A stretch of DNA of 38,555 nucleotides. Source: a candidate division Zixibacteria bacterium HGW-Zixibacteria-1. GTDB taxonomy: Bacteria; Zixibacteria; MSB-5A5; GN15; PGXB01. The stretch spans positions 1-38,555 of the forward strand of contig PGXB01000035.1 in the NCBI GenBank assembly GCA_002838945.1. Reading direction: 5' to 3'. Positions 5,233-19,430 of this stretch are shown here, one piece after another. The stretch's first letter is position 1. Each line of letters opens with the position of its first letter. Both the position numbers and the translations under genes were made by a program. The notes beneath the pieces were generated by a model. That model did no database searches. It had not been told where the DNA came from and saw only the letters and a list, made by a program, of their open reading frames with translations.

Positions 5233-6468
5233 ATGCGTAAAATGCTAATGGCTCTGCTGGGGGTGATTTTTATCGCGGCCTCATCGCCCGCCACGACCTG
5301 TGTCGACTGCCATAAGGAGGTCACTCCGAACATCGTCAAGGACTGGCAGTTCAGCAAACACAGCGAAAATGAAATCGGCTGTTCGACCTGTCACGGCGAG
5401 GGGCATCAAACCGCCGCCGATTTCGCCAAAGCCGATATTCCGACACCGACCGTCTGCGCCGACTGCCATGACACCCAGGTGGCACAGTTCAGCAAGGGCA
5501 AGCATGCCGCGGCCTGGGCATCGATGAAAGCGATGCCGACCACGCACATGCTTCCCTATGCCCTCAGCGATGGGATGAAGGGTTGCGGCGGATGTCACAA
5601 GCTGGGCCTGAAGACGGAAGATGAAATCAAGGTACTGAAAGAACAGGGGCATGGCTTTGGGACCGCTTCGTGCGATGCCTGCCATACGCGGCACACTTTC
5701 TCGGTCAAGGAAGCCCAGCAGCCGCAGGCCTGCCAGACCTGCCACATGGGTTTCGATCATCCGCAGTGGGAGATGTACTCATCATCAAAGCATGGTGTCA
5801 GGTATCTTCTCAAGCAGAACGGCACGTTGCATGAAGAAACAGTTGCGCCCACATGCCAGACCTGCCACATGGTTGACGGCAATCACGAAGTGAGGACACC
5901 GTGGGGATTTCTGGCGGTGCGGCTGCCGCTTCCCGAGGATCCGGAATGGAAAGCCGACCAGATTACGATTCTTCAGGCGCTTGGTGTTCTCGACATGGAC
6001 GGCAACCCGACCGAGCGGCTGGATGTGGTGAAGGCGGCCGATGTGGCCCGGCTCGACCAGGAATCATTCGATCGCGAACGCAATAAAATTATCGACGTCT
6101 GTTCGAAGTGTCATTCGAAGAATTTTGCCGTCGGCGAAATCAAAAAGGGTGACGACATGATCAAAGCGGCGGATCATCTGCTGGCCGAAGGCATCCGCAT
6201 CATTGCGGGGTTGTATCAGGACGGCACCCTGGCCAAACCGGAGAGTTATGCCTATCCGTTCCCGGACCTGCTCACGTTCCATGACGCCCCGACCATCATC
6301 GAGCAGACCCTGTTCGAGATGCATCTCAAGCACCGTATGCGTGCTTTCCAGGGCGTGTTCCATGCCAACCCGGATTATGCTCTGTGGTACGGATGGAGCG
6401 AGATGGTGCGGGATTTACAGGAAATCAAGGAACTGGCCGCCGATTTGCGTTTCAAGCACGGGAAGTGA
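5233..6468 (+). CDS. Octahaem cytochrome c, hydroxylamine oxidoreductase (HAO) family
   Basis: 411 aa. A short signal peptide (1-20) is followed by eight CxxCH haem sites at C23, C50, C75, C118, C147, C167, C208 and C290, with a long haem-free stretch between the seventh and eighth and a helical C-terminal tail. This spacing and the tail motif FHANPDYALWYGWSEM fit HAO-like octahaem proteins. Family members oxidise hydroxylamine or hydrazine, or, in the subgroup lacking the tyrosine cross-link, reduce nitrite or hydroxylamine. Tyrosines are present in the tail, but whether one aligns with the P460 cross-link cannot be settled by eye. The gene has AGGAGG upstream and an FNR-type promoter, which favours a reductive nitrogen role. 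No membrane quinol partner is adjacent; the NapH-like gene at 0.1 kb is a conceivable one. Confidence 0.8.
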   Translation: MRKMLMALLGVIFIAASSPATTCVDCHKEVTPNIVKDWQFSKHSENEIGCSTCHGEGHQTAADFAKADIPTPTVCADCHDTQVAQFSKGKHAAAWASMKAMPTTHMLPYALSDGMKGCGGCHKLGLKTEDEIKVLKEQGHGFGTASCDACHTRHTFSVKEAQQPQACQTCHMGFDHPQWEMYSSSKHGVRYLLKQNGTLHEETVAPTCQTCHMVDGNHEVRTPWGFLAVRLPLPEDPEWKADQITILQALGVLDMDGNPTERLDVVKAADVARLDQESFDRERNKIIDVCSKCHSKNFAVGEIKKGDDMIKAADHLLAEGIRIIAGLYQDGTLAKPESYAYPFPDLLTFHDAPTIIEQTLFEMHLKHRMRAFQGVFHANPDYALWYGWSEMVRDLQEIKELAADLRFKHGK

Positions 6469-10753: not shown

Positions 10754-11089
10754 ATGCCCGAATTTAAGATCGAAGATGATACTCCGGTGTTATTTGAGTT
10801 TACAACCGGATCTGATGTCCAAAATGTTGGACTGTTCAGTATTTTTGCAACCAAAACCGAAGAATTCAAAGAAAAATCGGCTATAGGTCTGGAAAGAGCC
10901 ATGAATGCAATCCAGACTATGGCCCAGCGAATCGGCCAGTTGCATGATAAGATTCCTGTGGAATTTTCTCAGGTCGAGGTCGAATTTGGCATCAAGCTTG
11001 ATTGGGAATTCGGGCCGGTTATAACAAAAGCCGGAGTCGAGAGCCATATCAATGTAAAATTGGTCTGGGATCGAAAGGACAAAAAGTGA
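10754..11089 (+). CDS. Trypsin-co-occurring domain (Trypco1-like) protein
   Basis: 111 aa, soluble. The N-terminal beta strands (VLFEFTTGSD) lead to a helix rich in Ala/Glu and then the diagnostic C-terminal pattern VEVEFGIKLDWEFGPVITKAG followed by VESHINVKLVWDRKD. This matches the CU044_2847/Trypco1 family, small proteins encoded next to trypsin-like proteases in predicted conflict systems. The next gene is exactly such a protease fused to a STAND NTPase, and its GTG start overlaps this stop (GTGA), so the two are translationally coupled. GGGAGGG precedes ATG 10754. The family's molecular role is not established; a partner, inhibitor or sensor for the protease is the usual proposal. Confidence 0.75.
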   Translation: MPEFKIEDDTPVLFEFTTGSDVQNVGLFSIFATKTEEFKEKSAIGLERAMNAIQTMAQRIGQLHDKIPVEFSQVEVEFGIKLDWEFGPVITKAGVESHINVKLVWDRKDKK

Positions 11090-13620
11090 GCAAAGAAGAG
11101 CCGGTTCTTCAGAATATTCGTAACTTCACTGTCCAGATAAGGCGAATCGAAGACGACCGAATCGTGGGTACCGGTATCGCCGTATCGGAAAAAGGTAAAA
11201 TTATTACCTGTGAGCATGTTGTTGAAGCTGTATTGGGCGTAAAACCATGCGATGCCGACGGTAAAGAAATCGGGATATATTTTCCACAAATCCCGGAATC
11301 TCGTCGGGCCAGAGTGAGTACCCTTTTAACCGAATTCGAGGATGATATTGTCGAATTGGAACTGTGCGACGGCCTCATGCCGCTGGGTTCGGAAAAAATC
11401 GCAAAACTTGGAGGTGCCGAAAATTCCGAGGGGCATAAATTTCGCAGTTACGGCTATAGCCCTACCGGGGAGCACCCGTCCACATGGGCCCACGGCATAA
11501 TACTGGGTTCTGTGGAGACCACTCATATTAAAAAATTGCAGGTTGACCCGGTTCAATTAAGCTCAAGGCAGATTGATCGCGGTATGAGCGGCGCCGCGGT
11601 CCTGGATGATGAACTAAATGCGGTCGTTGGTATTATTTCGGCACGCTATTTTCCAAAGAGCGCGGTCAAGGATGATATTGGTTATGCGGTTGATAATTAT
11701 GTGCTCACATTCAATCCATTCAATTATACACTCGAGAATAAAGTAGCAAAACTCCCGGCCCCGGAGCCGAAGACCGATCAGGAAAAAGTGAGGACAGCCG
11801 GGAAACCGAAAGAGGCCGTCATTCTCAACAACGCGCCGACTTCGCTGGATGAATGGGTCGGGCGGGCGGAGTTGCTCGGGCAGATTACCGAAGATTGTCT
11901 GAGTCAGAAAATACATATGACCGGGCTGATCGGGTTCGGCGGTGAGGGCAAAAGCAGTCTGGCGCGAAGGTGGCTGGACAACATGCTCGAAGGTATGCCC
12001 GACTGCCCCAAACCGGATGGTGTTTTCTGGTGGGGATTTTATGACCGGCCCGGAGTGGATGAGTTTTTCGAGGCGGCGCTTGAGTATATCAGTGGCGGGA
12101 CTATAAAAGCTTCAGAACTGCCTTCTTCGACGGCCAAAGCGCACTTCATTGCCGCCATGCTGTCCAGAAGCAAATATATTTTTGTACTGGACGGGCTGGA
12201 AGTGCTTCAGGAGCAGGACGGGGACAAATACGGCCTTCTGCGCAGCCGTGACTTGAGAGATTTTCTGCACTTTTTCGCCGGACCGGGGCATGATTCATTT
12301 TGCCTTGTCACCAGCCGGGCGCCGTTATTCGATCTGATTGAATATAACACTTATTCCAATCGTGATGTCATGCGGATGAGTGAAAGCGACGGCCGGGATT
12401 TGCTGCGCAGATATGGTGTAAAAAACGGCACGGAGGCCGAACTCGATAAGATTGTCCGCGAGTGGGACGGCCACGCTCTTACCTTGAGCCTTATCGGAAC
12501 ATATTTGGCGGAAAAATATGACGGCGATATTCACAAAGCCGATAAAATTGAACCGCCGACAGCGGATGAACCGCGTTATGAGCGGGTGCATCGGGTTCTG
12601 CGCCGCTATGACGAGCATCTGACCGAGGCCGAACGCGCCTTTATGATTATATTCAGCGTCTTCCGCACCCCGGTCAAAGAGGAAGCTTTCCCCAAAGTAT
12701 TTCGAACCGCAACCGGCAAGACCGCCATAAATGCGCCTATAACAAGACTGAATAATACAGAATTCGGGGCAATGCTTGAGCTCCTTAAAAAATATCGTAT
12801 TCTCCGCTATGACGCCCGCGAAAGACATTACACCACTCATCCTCTTATTCGCAGACATTACAGTGCTATATTGGTAAAGGGAGGAATAGAAGAAAACAAA
12901 GAAGCAATAGAGATTCACAGGCAAATCAAGGATTATTATCTTGCCACTGCCGGTGACGCGCCGCGCTATCCTACTCTTGAAGACCTGAAACCATTTATCG
13001 AAGTCGTCCACCATCTCTGCAAAGCGGGAGCCTATGATGAGGCATTTAATATTGTCTGGAATCAACTTTTTAGGAATGTTGAATTTGTCATTTCCCGGAA
13101 GCTTTCCGCATGGGATACGGTATGGGATTTGATGCTGGAATTTTTTGCGGATCGTGACACCACCGGTGAACCGCTGGTCAGCGAACCTTCCGGCAAAGGC
13201 TGGATATTAAACGAGTCTGGCCTATGCCTGATGTGTCTCGGGCGGCTGGCCGAAGCGGTTTCTTTTTATGATAGAGGAAATAAAATTGATGTGGATATAC
13301 TGAAGGCTTGGCGGTTTGGCAGTACCGATTTTCAAAACTTATCTGAACTACATTGCCATCTTGGCTCTCTGAAAGAAGCCGAAAAAGCGGCGAAGCAGGC
13401 GCTTGAATATGCCCGCCGCGCCGAGGATGAAGGGGAAAAGCGCGTTTCGCTGACCTCTTTGGGATGGGTCGCCCATCTAAATGGCGATATAAAAAAAGCC
13501 GGGGAATTGTTTAAAAAGGCTGAGAAACTCGAAAAAGAAATCGATCCAGCTAGTCAATATCTATACAGCCTTCGTGGTATCCAGCATGCCGAATATCTCC
13601 TCAAAACCGGCGATATTTAA
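11086..13620 (+). CDS. Trypsin-like protease - STAND (NB-ARC) NTPase - TPR effector
   Basis: 844 aa from GTG 11086, chosen because it overlaps the upstream stop and has AAGGA before it; open frame further upstream is Trypco1 overlap. Residues 1-210 are a trypsin-like domain with an intact triad: TCEHVV (H44), EFEDDIVELEL (D87) and RGMSGAAV (S168). There is no signal peptide, so it acts in the cytoplasm. Residues 255-530 form an NB-ARC-type STAND module: GFGGEGKSS P-loop (K289), FVLDGLEVLQ Walker B, LVTSRAP sensor and GHALTLSLIGTYL GxP-like motif. A winged-helix-like part (HYTTHPLIRRHY) and TPR-like helices follow. By analogy with Avs/NLR systems, a sensed trigger would release the protease. 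The frame ends at TAA 13618-13620 inside the TPR region and resumes at once. Confidence 0.85.
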   Translation: MSKEEPVLQNIRNFTVQIRRIEDDRIVGTGIAVSEKGKIITCEHVVEAVLGVKPCDADGKEIGIYFPQIPESRRARVSTLLTEFEDDIVELELCDGLMPLGSEKIAKLGGAENSEGHKFRSYGYSPTGEHPSTWAHGIILGSVETTHIKKLQVDPVQLSSRQIDRGMSGAAVLDDELNAVVGIISARYFPKSAVKDDIGYAVDNYVLTFNPFNYTLENKVAKLPAPEPKTDQEKVRTAGKPKEAVILNNAPTSLDEWVGRAELLGQITEDCLSQKIHMTGLIGFGGEGKSSLARRWLDNMLEGMPDCPKPDGVFWWGFYDRPGVDEFFEAALEYISGGTIKASELPSSTAKAHFIAAMLSRSKYIFVLDGLEVLQEQDGDKYGLLRSRDLRDFLHFFAGPGHDSFCLVTSRAPLFDLIEYNTYSNRDVMRMSESDGRDLLRRYGVKNGTEAELDKIVREWDGHALTLSLIGTYLAEKYDGDIHKADKIEPPTADEPRYERVHRVLRRYDEHLTEAERAFMIIFSVFRTPVKEEAFPKVFRTATGKTAINAPITRLNNTEFGAMLELLKKYRILRYDARERHYTTHPLIRRHYSAILVKGGIEENKEAIEIHRQIKDYYLATAGDAPRYPTLEDLKPFIEVVHHLCKAGAYDEAFNIVWNQLFRNVEFVISRKLSAWDTVWDLMLEFFADRDTTGEPLVSEPSGKGWILNESGLCLMCLGRLAEAVSFYDRGNKIDVDILKAWRFGSTDFQNLSELHCHLGSLKEAEKAAKQALEYARRAEDEGEKRVSLTSLGWVAHLNGDIKKAGELFKKAEKLEKEIDPASQYLYSLRGIQHAEYLLKTGDI

Positions 13621-14221: not shown

Positions 14222-15475
14222 TCAGAATACCAACTGGAACTGGGAGCGGATGGAGACGTCCTTGCGGCTGTCGTTCCTGACATAACCATGCCGCGTCCAC
14301 GTGAAATCATTCTGTATCTTGAGCTGATGACCGATTAATTTATAAACCATGCCGACCGTATATTCATCTTCGGAATCCAGCTTACCGACCGAGCCGTACT
14401 GTTTCTGGATACTTTCGATATAATCGGGGCCGAGGCCGATTGGATATTCATAATAATAGGCACTGGCCGCGGCAATAATACTGTCGGCCCGGTTGTGGGC
14501 ATCATCAAGAATGTAGTCCCTGATGTCCAGACGCGAATAGCGGGCGGAAAGGTCGATACGCTCATTCACTTTGACGGTCAGTTCAAGCAGGAGTCCGGTG
14601 ACGCTCAGTCTCGTGATTTCGGGATCGAGAAAATCGACAAAGCCGAGATAGCCGATACCGTTGAACTTGAATCTGTTATAATCCATCACTAATTCAGGGG
14701 CCAGCCTGATGGAGAAATCCTGATAGTCGGCCGGTTCGATATCCCAGGCGCCGCTGAAAGCGGCTTTGACATTCAATTCGGAATTTTCCGGCTTATAATA
14801 GTAAGTCCCTTTGGCAAACAGCTCCGGATGGAACTCCGCTTTCGAGCCGGGGTCGGCCAGATCGGACGGGTTGGGGCGCTCTTCGCCATAGATCATCGGC
14901 ACGCCGATGCCATGCGAAGCGCGCGCGTTGACGCCGGTGAAGACACCTAATACATAGCCCCACCCTTCGACATCGCGGTAGCCGTTATGCACCGCGAAAC
15001 CCATCTGCCGCTCGGCGCCGAAATATTTGGTCAAAATCGACCAGTCGGCCATGACCAGATTTCCGAAGGACTCCTGCCGATACTCGGTGAAGGGGACCTT
15101 GAATTGCCCGAAGCGGAACTGCGAGCAGGGGCAATAAGAGTAATTGCCATAAATATCCATCAGTTCCAGTGAATTGGGGGCAAAACTCAACTGCGAGCCA
15201 TATGACAGATTGGGCGTGCCCAGGACACCACTGAGGCTTAACCGGATGCGGCGCGCCTCCATGGTCAGTTTGTCCTCTCGTTCCTTGCTGCCGCCCATAT
15301 CCTTGTTGAAATATTCCATCCGCAACTGGGCGGTGAACTGGATTTTCATGGTGGCGGTTTTATCCTTGTTGCTGATTTCAAACGGCCCGATACCGGCCCT
15401 CGAAATCACCGCGAATCCGATGATGAAAATTGACAGGAGAAGTGCGAAGCAGATACGATTCAGCCTTACTTTCAT
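14222..15475 (-). CDS. Phosphate-selective porin O/P-type outer-membrane protein
   Basis: 417 aa from ATG 15475, which has GGGAG 8 bases before it; a GTG at 15502 lacks a ribosome site. The signal peptide ends near ISRAG. The rest is alternating beta strands (KIQFTAQLRMEYFN, EARRIRLSLSG, FRFGQFKVPFTEYRQES, ARYSRLDIRDY) and ends in terminal Phe (SQFQLVF), the outer-membrane insertion signal. The RFGQFKVPF segment and overall length match the OprO/OprP (PF07396) family. Substrate specificity cannot be read, and no pho genes are near. It is divergent from the corrinoid operon, sharing a 225-base promoter region, so it could supply that pathway's substrate. Confidence 0.8.
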   Translation of the reverse strand: MKVRLNRICFALLLSIFIIGFAVISRAGIGPFEISNKDKTATMKIQFTAQLRMEYFNKDMGGSKEREDKLTMEARRIRLSLSGVLGTPNLSYGSQLSFAPNSLELMDIYGNYSYCPCSQFRFGQFKVPFTEYRQESFGNLVMADWSILTKYFGAERQMGFAVHNGYRDVEGWGYVLGVFTGVNARASHGIGVPMIYGEERPNPSDLADPGSKAEFHPELFAKGTYYYKPENSELNVKAAFSGAWDIEPADYQDFSIRLAPELVMDYNRFKFNGIGYLGFVDFLDPEITRLSVTGLLLELTVKVNERIDLSARYSRLDIRDYILDDAHNRADSIIAAASAYYYEYPIGLGPDYIESIQKQYGSVGKLDSEDEYTVGMVYKLIGHQLKIQNDFTWTRHGYVRNDSRKDVSIRSQFQLVF

Positions 15476-15512
15476 AGTCCAACTCCCATAATTAAATTTC
15501 ACAAGTCCAATA

Positions 15513-15526: not shown

Positions 15527-15700
15527 CCAGAGTACCAGATTAATTAATCAATTTGATAGAAAGACGCAATAGCGGGAAACATAATTTAGCCCGATTTATG
15601 AAGACAAAAATCATCCTGATATCAGGTCGTTATGGCGAATTGGCTTTCATATTATTATATTGGCTCAAGGCCGTTAATCATAAACTTAATGAGGTTGCCG

Positions 15701-17161
15701 ATGAGACCGGTTGTCAGATTTCTTGAAAAGGAGTTAATCGAGAGGATTATAGCCGAGGCGCGGGATATCCTGTGCCATCTGGGAGTGACGATTCACAATG
15801 ACGGCCTGCTGTCGCTTCTTTCGGATTCCGGGGCCGAAGTCGATAAGAACAAGCAACATGTTCGCTTCACGGAAGATATAATCGACAAAGCCATCAAAGA
15901 CGCGCCGTCCGGTTTTAAGCTTTATGACGCGCTCGGGCATCAGCAGTGTGATTTTTCCGGCGACAAGGTTCATTTCACACCCGGTTCGGCCGCCATTTAT
16001 ATTATTGATGCCGGGGCGAAAGATGTCCGCAAGGCGACCGTGGCGGATTATATTGCATACACGAAACTGGTCAGCCGGATGAAATATATCGCTTCGCAGA
16101 GCACGGCGATGGTGCCATCGGATGTGCCGCAGGAAATCGCCGACAGTATCCGGCTTTATCTCAGCCTGATGCTGTGCGAGAAACCGGTGGTGACCGGGGC
16201 GTTCAAGATAGTATCATTCGAAGTGATGAAAAATTTGCAGGTGGCCATTCGCGGTTCGGAAGAGGAATTAAGAAATAAGCCGCTGACCGTTTTTTCATGC
16301 TGTCCGACCTCACCATTGAGCTGGTCCGATGTCACTTCGCAAAATCTGGTCGATTGCGCGCGTTATGGAATCCCGGTCGAATATGTGGCGATGCCGTTGA
16401 GCGGGTTTGTGGCTCCGGTGACGCTGGTCGGGACGCTGGTGCAGCATACGGCCGAGACATTATCCGGCGTGGTGCTGACACAATTGACCAGTCCCGGCGC
16501 GCCGGCGCTCTATGGCGGTTCACCGGCAATTTTTGATATCCGCTATGAAACGACGCCGATGGGGGCGGTGGAGACGGAGATGATCGACTGCGCCTACAAT
16601 GAAATCGGCAAATACCTGGGGCTTCCGACGCAGGCGTATATCGGTTTGAGTGATGCCAAGCATCTCGATGCCCAGGCCGGATTGGAGACGTCGATGGGCG
16701 CGACCCTGGCGGCGCTTTCGGGGATCAATAGTATCTCGGGGCCGGGAATGATCGATTTCGAAAACTGTTTCAGCCATGAGAAGCTGGTGGTGGATAATGA
16801 GATTTGCGGGATGGTAATGCGGCTGATAAGCGGTATCGAGCCGAAAGAAGACTTTCCGGCGCGGCCGCATTTCGAGGAGCTTCTCAGGGAAAAACATCTC
16901 CTGATAGCGGATCATTCGCGGAAATATCTTCGCAGTGAGCATCATTTCCCGGGTGCCGTTATCGAGCGGGCCAACCGGGCGCGCTGGCGCGAGGAAGGCG
17001 GGAAGACACTTATGGAGAAGGCCCGGGGGGAAGTCGCTCGGATGGTTGATGAATACGAGCCGACAGGATTGCCGGGCGATGTAAAAACAGAATTGAGCCG
17101 TATTATGGGTGTCGAGGCGCGGAAATACGGTATGGATAAATTGCCAGTGCTGGAAATATGA
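15701..17161 (+). CDS. MttB-family (non-pyrrolysine) methylamine/betaine:corrinoid methyltransferase
   Basis: 486 aa from ATG 15701 (GAGGT 5 bases before; the frame is open back to 15632). It matches COG5598/MttB throughout: LSDSGAEVD and HFTPGSAAIYIIDA in the N-terminal half, then TSPGAPALYGGSPAIFDIRY and SMGATLAALSGINSISGPGM in the TIM barrel. Archaeal MttB uses pyrrolysine at an in-frame UAG; here no in-frame TAG exists and the gene ends in TGA. It therefore belongs to the larger non-Pyl group, whose characterised members (MtgB, MtpB, MtcB) demethylate quaternary amines such as glycine betaine onto a corrinoid protein. The ATGA overlap with the next gene and the corrinoid protein downstream support that role. 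The actual substrate is unknown. Confidence 0.85.
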   Translation: MRPVVRFLEKELIERIIAEARDILCHLGVTIHNDGLLSLLSDSGAEVDKNKQHVRFTEDIIDKAIKDAPSGFKLYDALGHQQCDFSGDKVHFTPGSAAIYIIDAGAKDVRKATVADYIAYTKLVSRMKYIASQSTAMVPSDVPQEIADSIRLYLSLMLCEKPVVTGAFKIVSFEVMKNLQVAIRGSEEELRNKPLTVFSCCPTSPLSWSDVTSQNLVDCARYGIPVEYVAMPLSGFVAPVTLVGTLVQHTAETLSGVVLTQLTSPGAPALYGGSPAIFDIRYETTPMGAVETEMIDCAYNEIGKYLGLPTQAYIGLSDAKHLDAQAGLETSMGATLAALSGINSISGPGMIDFENCFSHEKLVVDNEICGMVMRLISGIEPKEDFPARPHFEELLREKHLLIADHSRKYLRSEHHFPGAVIERANRARWREEGGKTLMEKARGEVARMVDEYEPTGLPGDVKTELSRIMGVEARKYGMDKLPVLEI

Positions 17162-17871
17162 GGCAGATTATAAATTTCGAAATAGAAGAATTGATTCCGC
17201 CCAGGGAGAATGTGCTGAAGAGCCAGGGCATTCCGCCCGGGGCCGAAGTGCCGGAGAAAATTCTGGAACTGGCCGATGAAGCGCTCGAGATATTCAGCGA
17301 ATTGTGCGAGCCGATCGGAGTCATTGCCGATGTTTCGATTGCACAATTTCGGGCCATCTACAACGGGTCAGGGAAAAACGAGCAGTTGACACCGGTGGCC
17401 AAAATTTATCCGGTGGCCGATCATCTGGCGCTGTTTGCCATCACGGTCGGCGGCGCGGTCAGCCATGAAATAAACAGTCTTTTTGAGGCCAATGAATTCG
17501 CCCTGGCCTCGATGCTGGATACGGCCGCTTCGGAAGCGACCGAACTGGCCGGGCATTCCACCGAGATGGCTTATTTCGAGCAATTGATGGAGGATGGAGA
17601 AGTTTCCCGCGAAAGTTATATAATGCGGTACAGTCCGGGATACTGCGGCTGGCATATAAGCGGGCAGAGAAAGCTGTTCGAGTATTTGAATCCGGAGGAG
17701 GTCGGTATCCACCTGACCGACAGTTTTATGATGGAGCCGATCAAGTCCATATCGGGAGTGATGCTGGTCGGCCCGGCTAAAATACATATGTTCGATATCG
17801 CTTATTCGTTTTGCGATCAATGCATGGACCGGGGCTGCCGGGCAAGAATCAACGGGATCAGGAAAAAATAG
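17158..17871 (+). CDS. Stand-alone MetH activation-domain protein (corrinoid reactivation)
   Basis: 237 aa, soluble, overlapping the MttB stop by ATGA. The C-terminal half matches the AdoMet-binding reactivation domain of MetH: RYSPGYCGWHISGQ (157-170, MetH has RxxPGYPACPxH) followed by LFEYLNPEEVGIHLTDSFMM and PIKSISGVMLVG. In MetH this domain remethylates inactive cob(II)alamin using AdoMet and reduced flavodoxin. As a separate protein beside a corrinoid subunit it would replace RamA-type activators. The tail has three cysteines (C219, C222, C227), a CxxC-x4-C arrangement absent from E. coli MetH and possibly metal-binding. Confidence 0.8.
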   Translation: MRQIINFEIEELIPPRENVLKSQGIPPGAEVPEKILELADEALEIFSELCEPIGVIADVSIAQFRAIYNGSGKNEQLTPVAKIYPVADHLALFAITVGGAVSHEINSLFEANEFALASMLDTAASEATELAGHSTEMAYFEQLMEDGEVSRESYIMRYSPGYCGWHISGQRKLFEYLNPEEVGIHLTDSFMMEPIKSISGVMLVGPAKIHMFDIAYSFCDQCMDRGCRARINGIRKK

Positions 17872-17896
17872 TTTCCCGCAATACAGGGGTGTAAAT

Positions 17897-18535
17897 TTGG
17901 AGATACTAAAACATATTTCGGAGAGCCTGGAACGCGGCGAGGACAAAAAAGTGGCCGAATTAACAGTGCAGGCGATCGAGGCAAAATTGGCGGCCAAACA
18001 GATACTCGATGACGGTCTGATTACCGGAATGACGGTGGTCGGGAAGAAATTCAAGGCGCACGAGATATTTCTTCCCGATGTTCTGCTGGCGGCTAAAGCG
18101 ATGTATGCCGGGCTCGATTTGCTCAAGCCGCTGCTCTTGAAGGAAAAAGTGCCGACGATCGGCAAGGTCGTTATCGGGACAGTGCATGGTGACATGCATG
18201 ATATCGGCAAAAATCTGGTCGGGATCATGCTCAAGGGAAATGGGTTCGATATAATCGATCTGGGTCATGATGTTCCCCCGGAGAAGTTTGTCGATACGGC
18301 GGTGGCCGAGGGGGCCTCGGTGATCGGCATGTCGGCGCTTCTGACGACAACCATGCCGAACATGAAACTGGTGGTCGATCTGATCAAAGAGCGCGGGCTG
18401 CAGAGCAAAATAAAAACCATCATCGGCGGGGCGCCGGTATCGGATGATTTTGCGCGTGAAATCGGCGCCGATGCTTATGCCTTCGACGGTATCAACTCGA
18501 TTGAGAAGATCAAGAACATGCTGGGACTGAACTGA
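17897..18535 (+). CDS. Corrinoid (B12-binding) methyl-carrier protein, MtbC/MttC type
   Basis: 212 aa, starting at TTG 17897. Residues 1-85 form the helical cap domain (MetH-like B12-binding module 1). Residues 88-212 are the Rossmann-like cobalamin domain with the base-off signature GDMHDIGKNLV (D99-x-H101-xx-G104), SALLTTTMPNM and IIGGAPV. His101 would be the lower cobalt ligand. Size and layout match MtbC/MttC/MtqC corrinoid proteins and MetH residues of the same module. It sits between the activation-domain gene and the homocysteine methyltransferase gene (1 base gap), so it is the predicted methyl shuttle of the operon. Confidence 0.9.
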   Translation: MEILKHISESLERGEDKKVAELTVQAIEAKLAAKQILDDGLITGMTVVGKKFKAHEIFLPDVLLAAKAMYAGLDLLKPLLLKEKVPTIGKVVIGTVHGDMHDIGKNLVGIMLKGNGFDIIDLGHDVPPEKFVDTAVAEGASVIGMSALLTTTMPNMKLVVDLIKERGLQSKIKTIIGGAPVSDDFAREIGADAYAFDGINSIEKIKNMLGLN

Positions 18536-18536
18536 T

Positions 18537-19430
18537 ATGAAAGATTTTCTGGAGAGGATAAAGGCGGGCGAGACGCTGATCGGCGACGGCGCCCTGGGGA
18601 CGATGCTGTTCGAGCGCGGCGTCAATATCAGTTATTGCCCGGAAAGAGTGAATCTTGGTCAGCAGGAGATTCTGCAGGAAATTGCGGCCGCATATTTGAA
18701 AGCCGGGGCCGACATCGTCGAGACAAACACGTTCGGGGCCTCGCCGCTGAAACTGGCGGTGTATGGCCTTCATGACAAGACCGAAGAAATAATCGGCAAC
18801 GCGGTCGAGGCAGTCAGGAAAGCGGTCGGGCGGCGGGCCTATATTTCGGGCTCGGTCGGGCCGTGCGGCAAAATCCTCAAACCGTATGGTGATGCCGACC
18901 CGAAAGCGGTGCTGGAGAGTTTCGAGCGGCAGATTAAGGCTCTTGCCGAGCACGGGGTGCATATAATTTGTATCGAAACCATGACCGATCTGGCCGAGGC
19001 CAAACTGGCTATTCAGGCGGCTAAGACGATGGCGCCGAATCTGCCGGTGATGGCGACCATGACCTTCGATCCGACCCCGCGCGGTTATTTTACTATAATG
19101 GGGACGGATATAAAAGCGGCGGCGGCCGGACTGGAAGAAGCGGGGGCCGATCTTATCGGTTCCAATTGCGGCAACGGGATCGAAAAAATGGTCGAAATCG
19201 CTCAGGGTTTCAGGATGTGCAGCCGGATGCCGCTGATAATTCAGTCCAATGCCGGGCTGCCCAGGATGGAAAAAGGAAAGGCCATTTATCTGGAAACACC
19301 GGAATTTATGGCGGAGAAAGGGCGCGCCCTGGCGGCGATCGGGGTGTCGGTTATCGGGGGCTGCTGCGGGACGACGCCGGCCCATATAAAGGCCATGAAA
19401 AAGATGGTCAATTACGTGCGGACTCATTGA
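18537..19430 (+). CDS. Homocysteine S-methyltransferase (MetH N-terminal module-like)
   Basis: 297 aa. It begins with the family motif GETLIGDGALGTMLFERGV, has GADIVETNTFGAS and carries the three zinc-binding cysteines: C211 in GSNCGNG and C276-C277 in GGCCGTTP. This equals the first domain of cobalamin-dependent methionine synthase, which activates homocysteine as a zinc thiolate. No folate-binding (pterin) domain is fused or encoded next to it. In this operon the methyl group would come from the MttB-loaded corrinoid protein instead of methyl-tetrahydrofolate. S-methylmethionine or betaine use without corrinoid is an alternative but less likely given the neighbours. Confidence 0.85.
   Translation: MKDFLERIKAGETLIGDGALGTMLFERGVNISYCPERVNLGQQEILQEIAAAYLKAGADIVETNTFGASPLKLAVYGLHDKTEEIIGNAVEAVRKAVGRRAYISGSVGPCGKILKPYGDADPKAVLESFERQIKALAEHGVHIICIETMTDLAEAKLAIQAAKTMAPNLPVMATMTFDPTPRGYFTIMGTDIKAAAAGLEEAGADLIGSNCGNGIEKMVEIAQGFRMCSRMPLIIQSNAGLPRMEKGKAIYLETPEFMAEKGRALAAIGVSVIGGCCGTTPAHIKAMKKMVNYVRTH

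Follow-up and report, generated by a model that had tools for sequence, protein, structure and literature searches.

Known methionine synthases draw their methyl group from methyl-folate, and the MetE-type Mes families draw it from other corrinoid proteins. In a separate group of systems (MttB/MttC, MtgBC, MtpB, MtcB, MtyB and MthBC) a member of the MttB family acts together with a small corrinoid partner (PMC9842639, PMC8604678, PMC12155760), and enzymes of this family have been described with amine donors and with tetrahydrofolate (THF) as acceptor, reached through a separate protein (PMC8604678, PMC12155760). The nearest published systems to the locus considered here are MtgBCDE of Ruegeria pomeroyi and the split methionine synthase of Phaeobacter inhibens (PMC12478193, PMC5764234). 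MtgBCDE consists of stand-alone MttB-type, corrinoid and homocysteine modules in which one corrinoid protein joins demethylation to methionine synthesis, and its pterin protein MtgD is essential for both functions, the methyl group passing via THF (PMC12478193); the Ruegeria and Phaeobacter systems are further characterized by RamA-like and DUF1638 reactivation, the lack of PF02965, up to seven MttB paralogues and scattered genes (PMC12478193, PMC5764234). Here we describe a compact four-gene cassette on contig PGXB01000035.1 of candidate division Zixibacteria bacterium HGW-Zixibacteria-1 (38,555 nucleotides, called the window below), which belongs to a 3.83 Mb metagenome-assembled genome (MAG; 82 contigs, 96.7% complete), and which probably encodes a four-subunit, folate-independent and B12-dependent methionine synthase.

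The cassette occupies positions 15701-19430 of the forward strand and encodes, in order, a non-pyrrolysine methyltransferase of the MttB superfamily (15701..17161, +; Pfam MTTB, 1.9e-76), proposed to act as donor:corrinoid methyltransferase, a separate reactivation protein of the MetH type in which four cysteines are invariant, here called the activation protein (17158..17871, +; Pfam Met_synt_B12, 2.4e-13), a corrinoid (B12-binding) protein with cap and Rossmann domain and a TTG start (17897..18535, +; Pfam B12-binding, 1e-26, and B12-binding_2, 1.7e-19), and a MetH-type zinc homocysteine S-methyltransferase that would form the acceptor module (18537..19430, +; Pfam S-methyl_trans, 2.1e-67). 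The intergenic gaps are -4, 25 and 1 bp, with the ATG of the activation gene overlapping the TGA of mttB as ATGA, all as given in the original prediction, which had been made from the sequence alone and had recognized four tightly spaced genes. This arrangement is not due to chance, because all four genes are kept in order at 37 loci of relatives from the same class, mostly with near-identical gaps (near -4 or -1, about 25 and about 1 bp), as well as at 48 of 80 further loci discussed below. In the mechanism that we propose, the MttB-type protein would move a methyl group from a methylated compound, probably externally supplied, onto the cob(I)alamin of the corrinoid protein, the zinc homocysteine methyltransferase would pass it from methylcobalamin to homocysteine to yield methionine, and the activation protein would rescue accidentally oxidised cob(II)alamin, either via S-adenosylmethionine (AdoMet) as in MetH or via a four-cysteine metal or iron-sulfur (Fe-S) site.

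The acceptor end of this scheme is borne by a subunit that carries the zinc homocysteine module of MetH (PF02574) and whose nearest solved chain is the homocysteine/folate fragment of Thermotoga maritima MetH, 1q7m, at 3.4e-64. Betaine-homocysteine methyltransferase, which would methylate homocysteine from betaine directly, follows behind at 1e-29 and was rejected as an identity for this subunit on that comparison. Residues C211, C276 and C277, the expected zinc ligands, are invariant in 16 orthologues, which supports homocysteine as the methyl acceptor, as had been foreseen. The corrinoid protein retains both B12-binding domains and, across orthologues, an invariant DxHDxG motif (D99, H101, D102, G104), its nearest solved chains being 1y80 and the MttC chain 7xcn. 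Judged by these relationships, the acceptor module is MetH-like and the pair of donor and corrinoid subunits is MttBC-like.

The donor subunit starts at the ATG at 15701 and not at the upstream ATG at 15632, as the motif MRPxVRFL begins the consensus of 16 orthologues. It carries Leu316 at the pyrrolysine position, so that its description as a non-pyrrolysine MttB was correct, and it scores 367 bits against the trimethylamine methyltransferase model TIGR02369, below the cut-off of 525. Its closest solved structures are Methanosarcina barkeri MttB and Desulfitobacterium hafniense MtgB, with about 30% identity to pyrrolysine MttB and 26% to MtgB, and the range for alphaproteobacterial and MtgB proteins is 22-26%. 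In a quick tree, in which the outgroup branches are long, the cassette MttBs form one clade of their own, separate from MtgB, pyrrolysine MttB and the alphaproteobacterial homologues; such a phylogeny had been proposed with the original prediction. The glycine betaine pocket of MtgB has been proposed from docking to comprise Y94, N199, R309 and H345 (PMC6855144), and these residues are replaced by S96, C201, Q311 and S346 in 75-80 of 80 cassette MttBs. The carboxylate-side Arg and His, mostly retained in the alphaproteobacterial homologues, are thereby lost, and it is therefore unlikely that glycine betaine is the donor if it must be held in the manner of MtgB; the first candidates would be donors that lack a carboxylate or are not amines. 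Within the non-pyrrolysine mttB, at window positions 16646-16745, and in several relatives, the Rfam model PYLIS_3 matches marginally; these matches lie inside coding sequence, with no in-frame TAG at the pyrrolysine position, and were put down to coding homology and rejected as a real pyrrolysine insertion element. Two other MttB frames hold a single in-frame TAG (L128 9604-10896 in genome G095, and G059:C285), the one in G095 stopping at about codon 430, off the pyrrolysine position, which likely reflects a frameshift, an error or a pseudogene.

The activation protein is modelled by AlphaFold with a mean confidence (predicted local distance difference test) of 94.4, and this model has the MetH reactivation fold: VIA-align places residues 1-205 on TM0269 with Z 19.7 (root-mean-square deviation 2.3, 192 aligned) and gives Z of about 15-17 to MetH reactivation domains. 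Four cysteines, C163, C219, C222 and C227, occur in every one of the 63 activation proteins compared, the first in a PGYCGW loop and the other three in a C-terminal tail that lies past the part aligned to TM0269, and it is a reasonable prediction that they form a metal or Fe-S site. Such a site would fit the absence of RamA from the genome, which has no match to PF14574, the RamA-type reductive activase. On the other hand, the position that corresponds to Arg1134 of E. coli MetH, which we take to be the AdoMet-binding Arg, is Arg in just 35 of the 63 proteins. Thus, the expectation that MetH-style reactivation by AdoMet takes the place of RamA stands as far as RamA is missing, and the AdoMet mode itself is uncertain.

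The remaining gene content of the genome is consistent with a cassette that works without folate. Its sole PF02574 protein and its sole PF06253 (MttB) protein are the members of the cassette, and family searches found neither PF01717 (MetE/Mes) nor PF02219 (MetF), so that the check for a full-length MetH or MetE proposed with the original prediction turned up neither, and MetF is missing as well. The only PF00809 protein is the dihydropteroate synthase FolP, which scores 333 bits with TIGR01496 (cut-off 163) and is encoded between folE and a cdaA-like gene. With no MetF and with PF00809 limited to FolP, the genome therefore has no enzyme of known type that forms methyl-THF and no methyltransferase of known type that binds it, and the folate module that had been called missing at the locus is missing genome-wide, leaving no other known route to methionine in this genome.

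The same pattern recurs among relatives. MttB, MetF, PF02574, PF00809 and PF01717 were searched for in 117 genomes of this class; MttB was found in 46, and MetF is present in 42 of the 45 genomes with MetH or MetE versus 2 of the 30 that have MttB and neither of these enzymes (Fisher 5e-15), the two exceptions being just 69% and 74% complete. In 28 genomes, then, the MttB type is the sole methionine synthase found and MetF is missing; by rounded figures, 18 of them reach 90% completeness or more and stay within 5% contamination, and in the single-contig genome G044 the cassette is present and MetH, MetE and MetF are all absent. The PF00809 proteins listed for cassette-only relatives are FolP-sized (about 260-380 amino acids), plus a few short fragments. 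Three genomes with activation, corrinoid and homocysteine genes and no adjoining MttB (G005, G055 and G056) were considered as a form with a swapped donor and rejected, given N gaps just upstream in G005 and G055 and a contig edge in G056. Cassette-like homocysteine methyltransferases also stand alone in three genomes without MttB, MetH, MetE or MetF (G020, G036 and G064; L080 8590-9489, L081 7615-8514 and L082 8088-9002). Relatives such as G080, G087 and G094 show a second arrangement of methionine-synthase genes, in which two PF01717 proteins of about 330-400 amino acids are combined with a fusion of homocysteine methyltransferase and MetF (about 610-650 amino acids); the PF01717 pair and the fusion frequently share a contig.

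Beyond this class, one scan of named genomes gave 264 MttB relatives, from which 80 loci were kept, and these come from sediment and groundwater bacteria of at least 12 phyla, including Zixibacteria, WOR-3, Stahlbacteria, Fermentibacteria, Cloacimonadota, Planctomycetota, Gemmatimonadota, Neomarinimicrobiota, Acidobacteriota, Aminicenantes, Ignavibacteriae, TA06, Myxococcota and Eisenbacteria. Among the loci that are incomplete, many stop at a contig edge or an N gap and a few lack the activation or homocysteine gene. A pterin-binding methyltransferase gene linked to the cassette in relatives had been named beforehand as the finding that would speak against the original prediction; no such gene (PF00809-type) was found in the 80 loci (1.0 Mb) or in 60 further regions from relatives, in searches that did detect control MetH domains. 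No close MttB was found on plasmids, where the best match covering most of the query reaches about 27% identity, nor was a stand-alone activation protein.

A rearranged sister cassette, in the order corrinoid, homocysteine, activation and MttB, occurs at L072 4576-8472, L074 8509-12214 and L076 745-4690, and L129 2-2232 holds its activation-MttB end only. Its MttB, which adjoins the cassette clade in the tree, is 46-49% identical to that of the window, its activation protein retains the tail cysteines and not C163 (PGYGGW or PGYGAW), and the host genomes also hold MetH or MetE-type enzymes together with MetF.

Several observations nevertheless weigh against the cassette being a methionine synthase that replaces the folate-dependent enzymes. 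Every named cassette member is a MAG by its title, some genomes hold the cassette alongside MetH or MetE, and neither a SAM nor a cobalamin riboswitch was found by Rfam in the window and 16 cassette loci. Furthermore, none of these synthases is present in 41 of the 117 relatives, which means that methionine auxotrophy or unrecognised routes are common in this class, and across all 117 genomes MttB and MetF show no anticorrelation (p = 0.56); this whole-sample comparison gives nothing because many genomes have no methionine synthase of any kind, and the informative test is the one within synthase-bearing genomes. The genome of the window also has no more than weak matches to the homocysteine-forming transsulfuration and sulfhydrylation enzymes of the PF01053 type (MetB/MetC/MetY; best 1.9e-7), DUF39 not having been searched, and such weak-PF01053 genomes are enriched for MttB (20 of 33 versus 26 of 84 of the others, p = 0.006, among the 117 relatives). 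Because of these weak matches the cassette may recycle the homocysteine that arises from AdoMet use, or it may operate with the DUF39 route to homocysteine that is known from sulfate reducers (PMC5764234); what had been claimed as direct formation of methionine could accordingly mean recycling. Finally, the cassette loci show no consistent linkage to a betaine transporter or to genes for uptake or downstream demethylation, betaine transporters not having been searched genome-wide, and together with the replaced MtgB pocket residues this leaves the quaternary or tertiary amine once put forward as donor a conjecture. Taken as a whole, the original prediction has held for the acceptor, the missing folate module and the lack of RamA, and not for the amine donor, AdoMet reactivation and direct synthesis in the form in which it stated them.

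Among other explanations, MttB might have switched to a universal intracellular donor, for example 5-methyl-THF from an unrecognised reductase, so that an MttB-type barrel would replace the pterin domain and the synthase would remain folate-dependent. One fixed substrate would suit MttB being better conserved than any other enzyme subunit (about 65-70% identity between phyla, versus 52-64% for the homocysteine subunit), and the lost glycine betaine residues and the lack of linked uptake genes point the same way; yet MetF is missing from 28 of the 30 MttB genomes without MetH or MetE, that of the window included, and we know of no MttB-superfamily member that binds folate, which makes this explanation unlikely. 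It is quite improbable, too, that the cassette is catabolic or runs in reverse, with AdoMet charging the corrinoid by way of the activation protein and MttB methylating a metabolite, or with homocysteine as a mere methyl sink in detoxification. The MetH activation domain does methylate cobalamin from AdoMet, the cassette is also present in genomes with MetH or MetE, and PF01053-type homocysteine genes are only weak here, all of which would agree with such a role; but AdoMet would be wasted if methyl groups flowed from it or from methionine to an amine, conservation is lacking at the AdoMet Arg, no catabolic genes are linked, and the co-absence of MetF, MetH and MetE would be left unexplained.

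A dual system of the MtgBCDE type, as in R. pomeroyi, with an unlinked MtgD and the methyl group still passing via folate, would involve the same kinds of module, whose genes are often scattered there (PMC12478193). This is very unlikely and already contradicted in the window's own genome, where PF00809 is represented by FolP only and RamA is absent; the PF00809 proteins of cassette-only relatives and the low identity of the MttB to alphaproteobacterial and MtgB proteins also stand against it. There is scarcely any likelihood that a folate-dependent methionine synthase is present and was simply not assembled: a genome in 82 contigs at 96.7% completeness would allow for it, but the same absence recurs in 28 genomes, of which 18 reach at least 90% completeness, and in the single contig of G044. 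The preferred reading is a folate-independent methionine synthase, for which we infer the flow of methyl groups to run from the methylated compound to homocysteine.

Whether this is a widespread and undescribed MetH-type folate-independent synthase that has a new Fe-S or metal activation protein, serves many uncultured bacteria as their sole methionine synthase and ties methionine to an environmental methylated compound, is in our judgement evenly balanced; no description of this cassette was found in the literature searched, subscription papers having been outside reach. If true, it would explain homocysteine methylation in many uncultured bacteria that have no MetH, MetE or MetF and would connect the supply of methionine with methylated compounds of sediments; the activation protein, with its four cysteines, would represent a new means of keeping B12 enzymes reduced. 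Pathway predictors limited to MetH, MetE and Mes would call such genomes methionine auxotrophs.

As to its surroundings, the cassette is a stand-alone four-gene unit whose flanks share little outside close relatives, the conserved neighbours (guaA, a porin, a thiouracil desulfurase-like gene and DUF362) each being present in just two to four genomes. In the window it is adjoined by a divergent porin-like gene (14222-15502) without a Pfam match, which is kept beside the cassette in G001, a same-genus relative of the window genome, and in G009. Elsewhere in the window, positions 11002-13620 encode a protein that combines a trypsin-like domain and tetratricopeptide repeats with what appears to be a nucleotide-binding region and that resembles signalling or defence proteins, and positions 5233-6468 encode a multihaem c-type cytochrome (Multi-haem_cyto, 2.1e-25).

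Compared with the known systems, the cassette shares with MetH, including the split TM0268/TM0269 form of T. maritima, a homocysteine module nearest to T. maritima MetH and a separate activation protein with the TM0269 fold; it differs from MetH in having no folate-binding domain and a corrinoid protein that is MttC/MtgC-like, and from TM0269 in the four invariant cysteines and the C-terminal tail, which is missing in TM0269. MttB/MttC, MtgBC, MtpB, MtcB, MtyB and MthBC deliver the methyl group to THF or coenzyme M via a separate protein and are reactivated by RamA/RamQ, whereas the cassette has a homocysteine acceptor module and another pocket. Like MesA-MesD, of which MesA-C probably take the methyl group from methyl-corrinoid proteins (PMC7857596), it would make methionine without methyl-folate, but those enzymes are MetE-type (PF01717), whereas the transferase of the cassette is of the MetH type (PF02574) and comes with a donor enzyme dedicated to it. 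In contrast to MtgBCDE, which the original prediction had missed, it has no pterin protein, no RamA, one MttB and a PF02965 protein, all in one compact operon. As an instance of MetH, MtgBCDE, MtgB, MttB or MesA-D the cassette was rejected, each comparison failing on a defining feature (the pterin module, MtgD/RamA, the pocket, pyrrolysine and PF01717, respectively). In conclusion, the cassette joins donor parts of the MttBC kind with acceptor and activation parts of the MetH kind, and we propose that it is a folate-independent MetH-type synthase.

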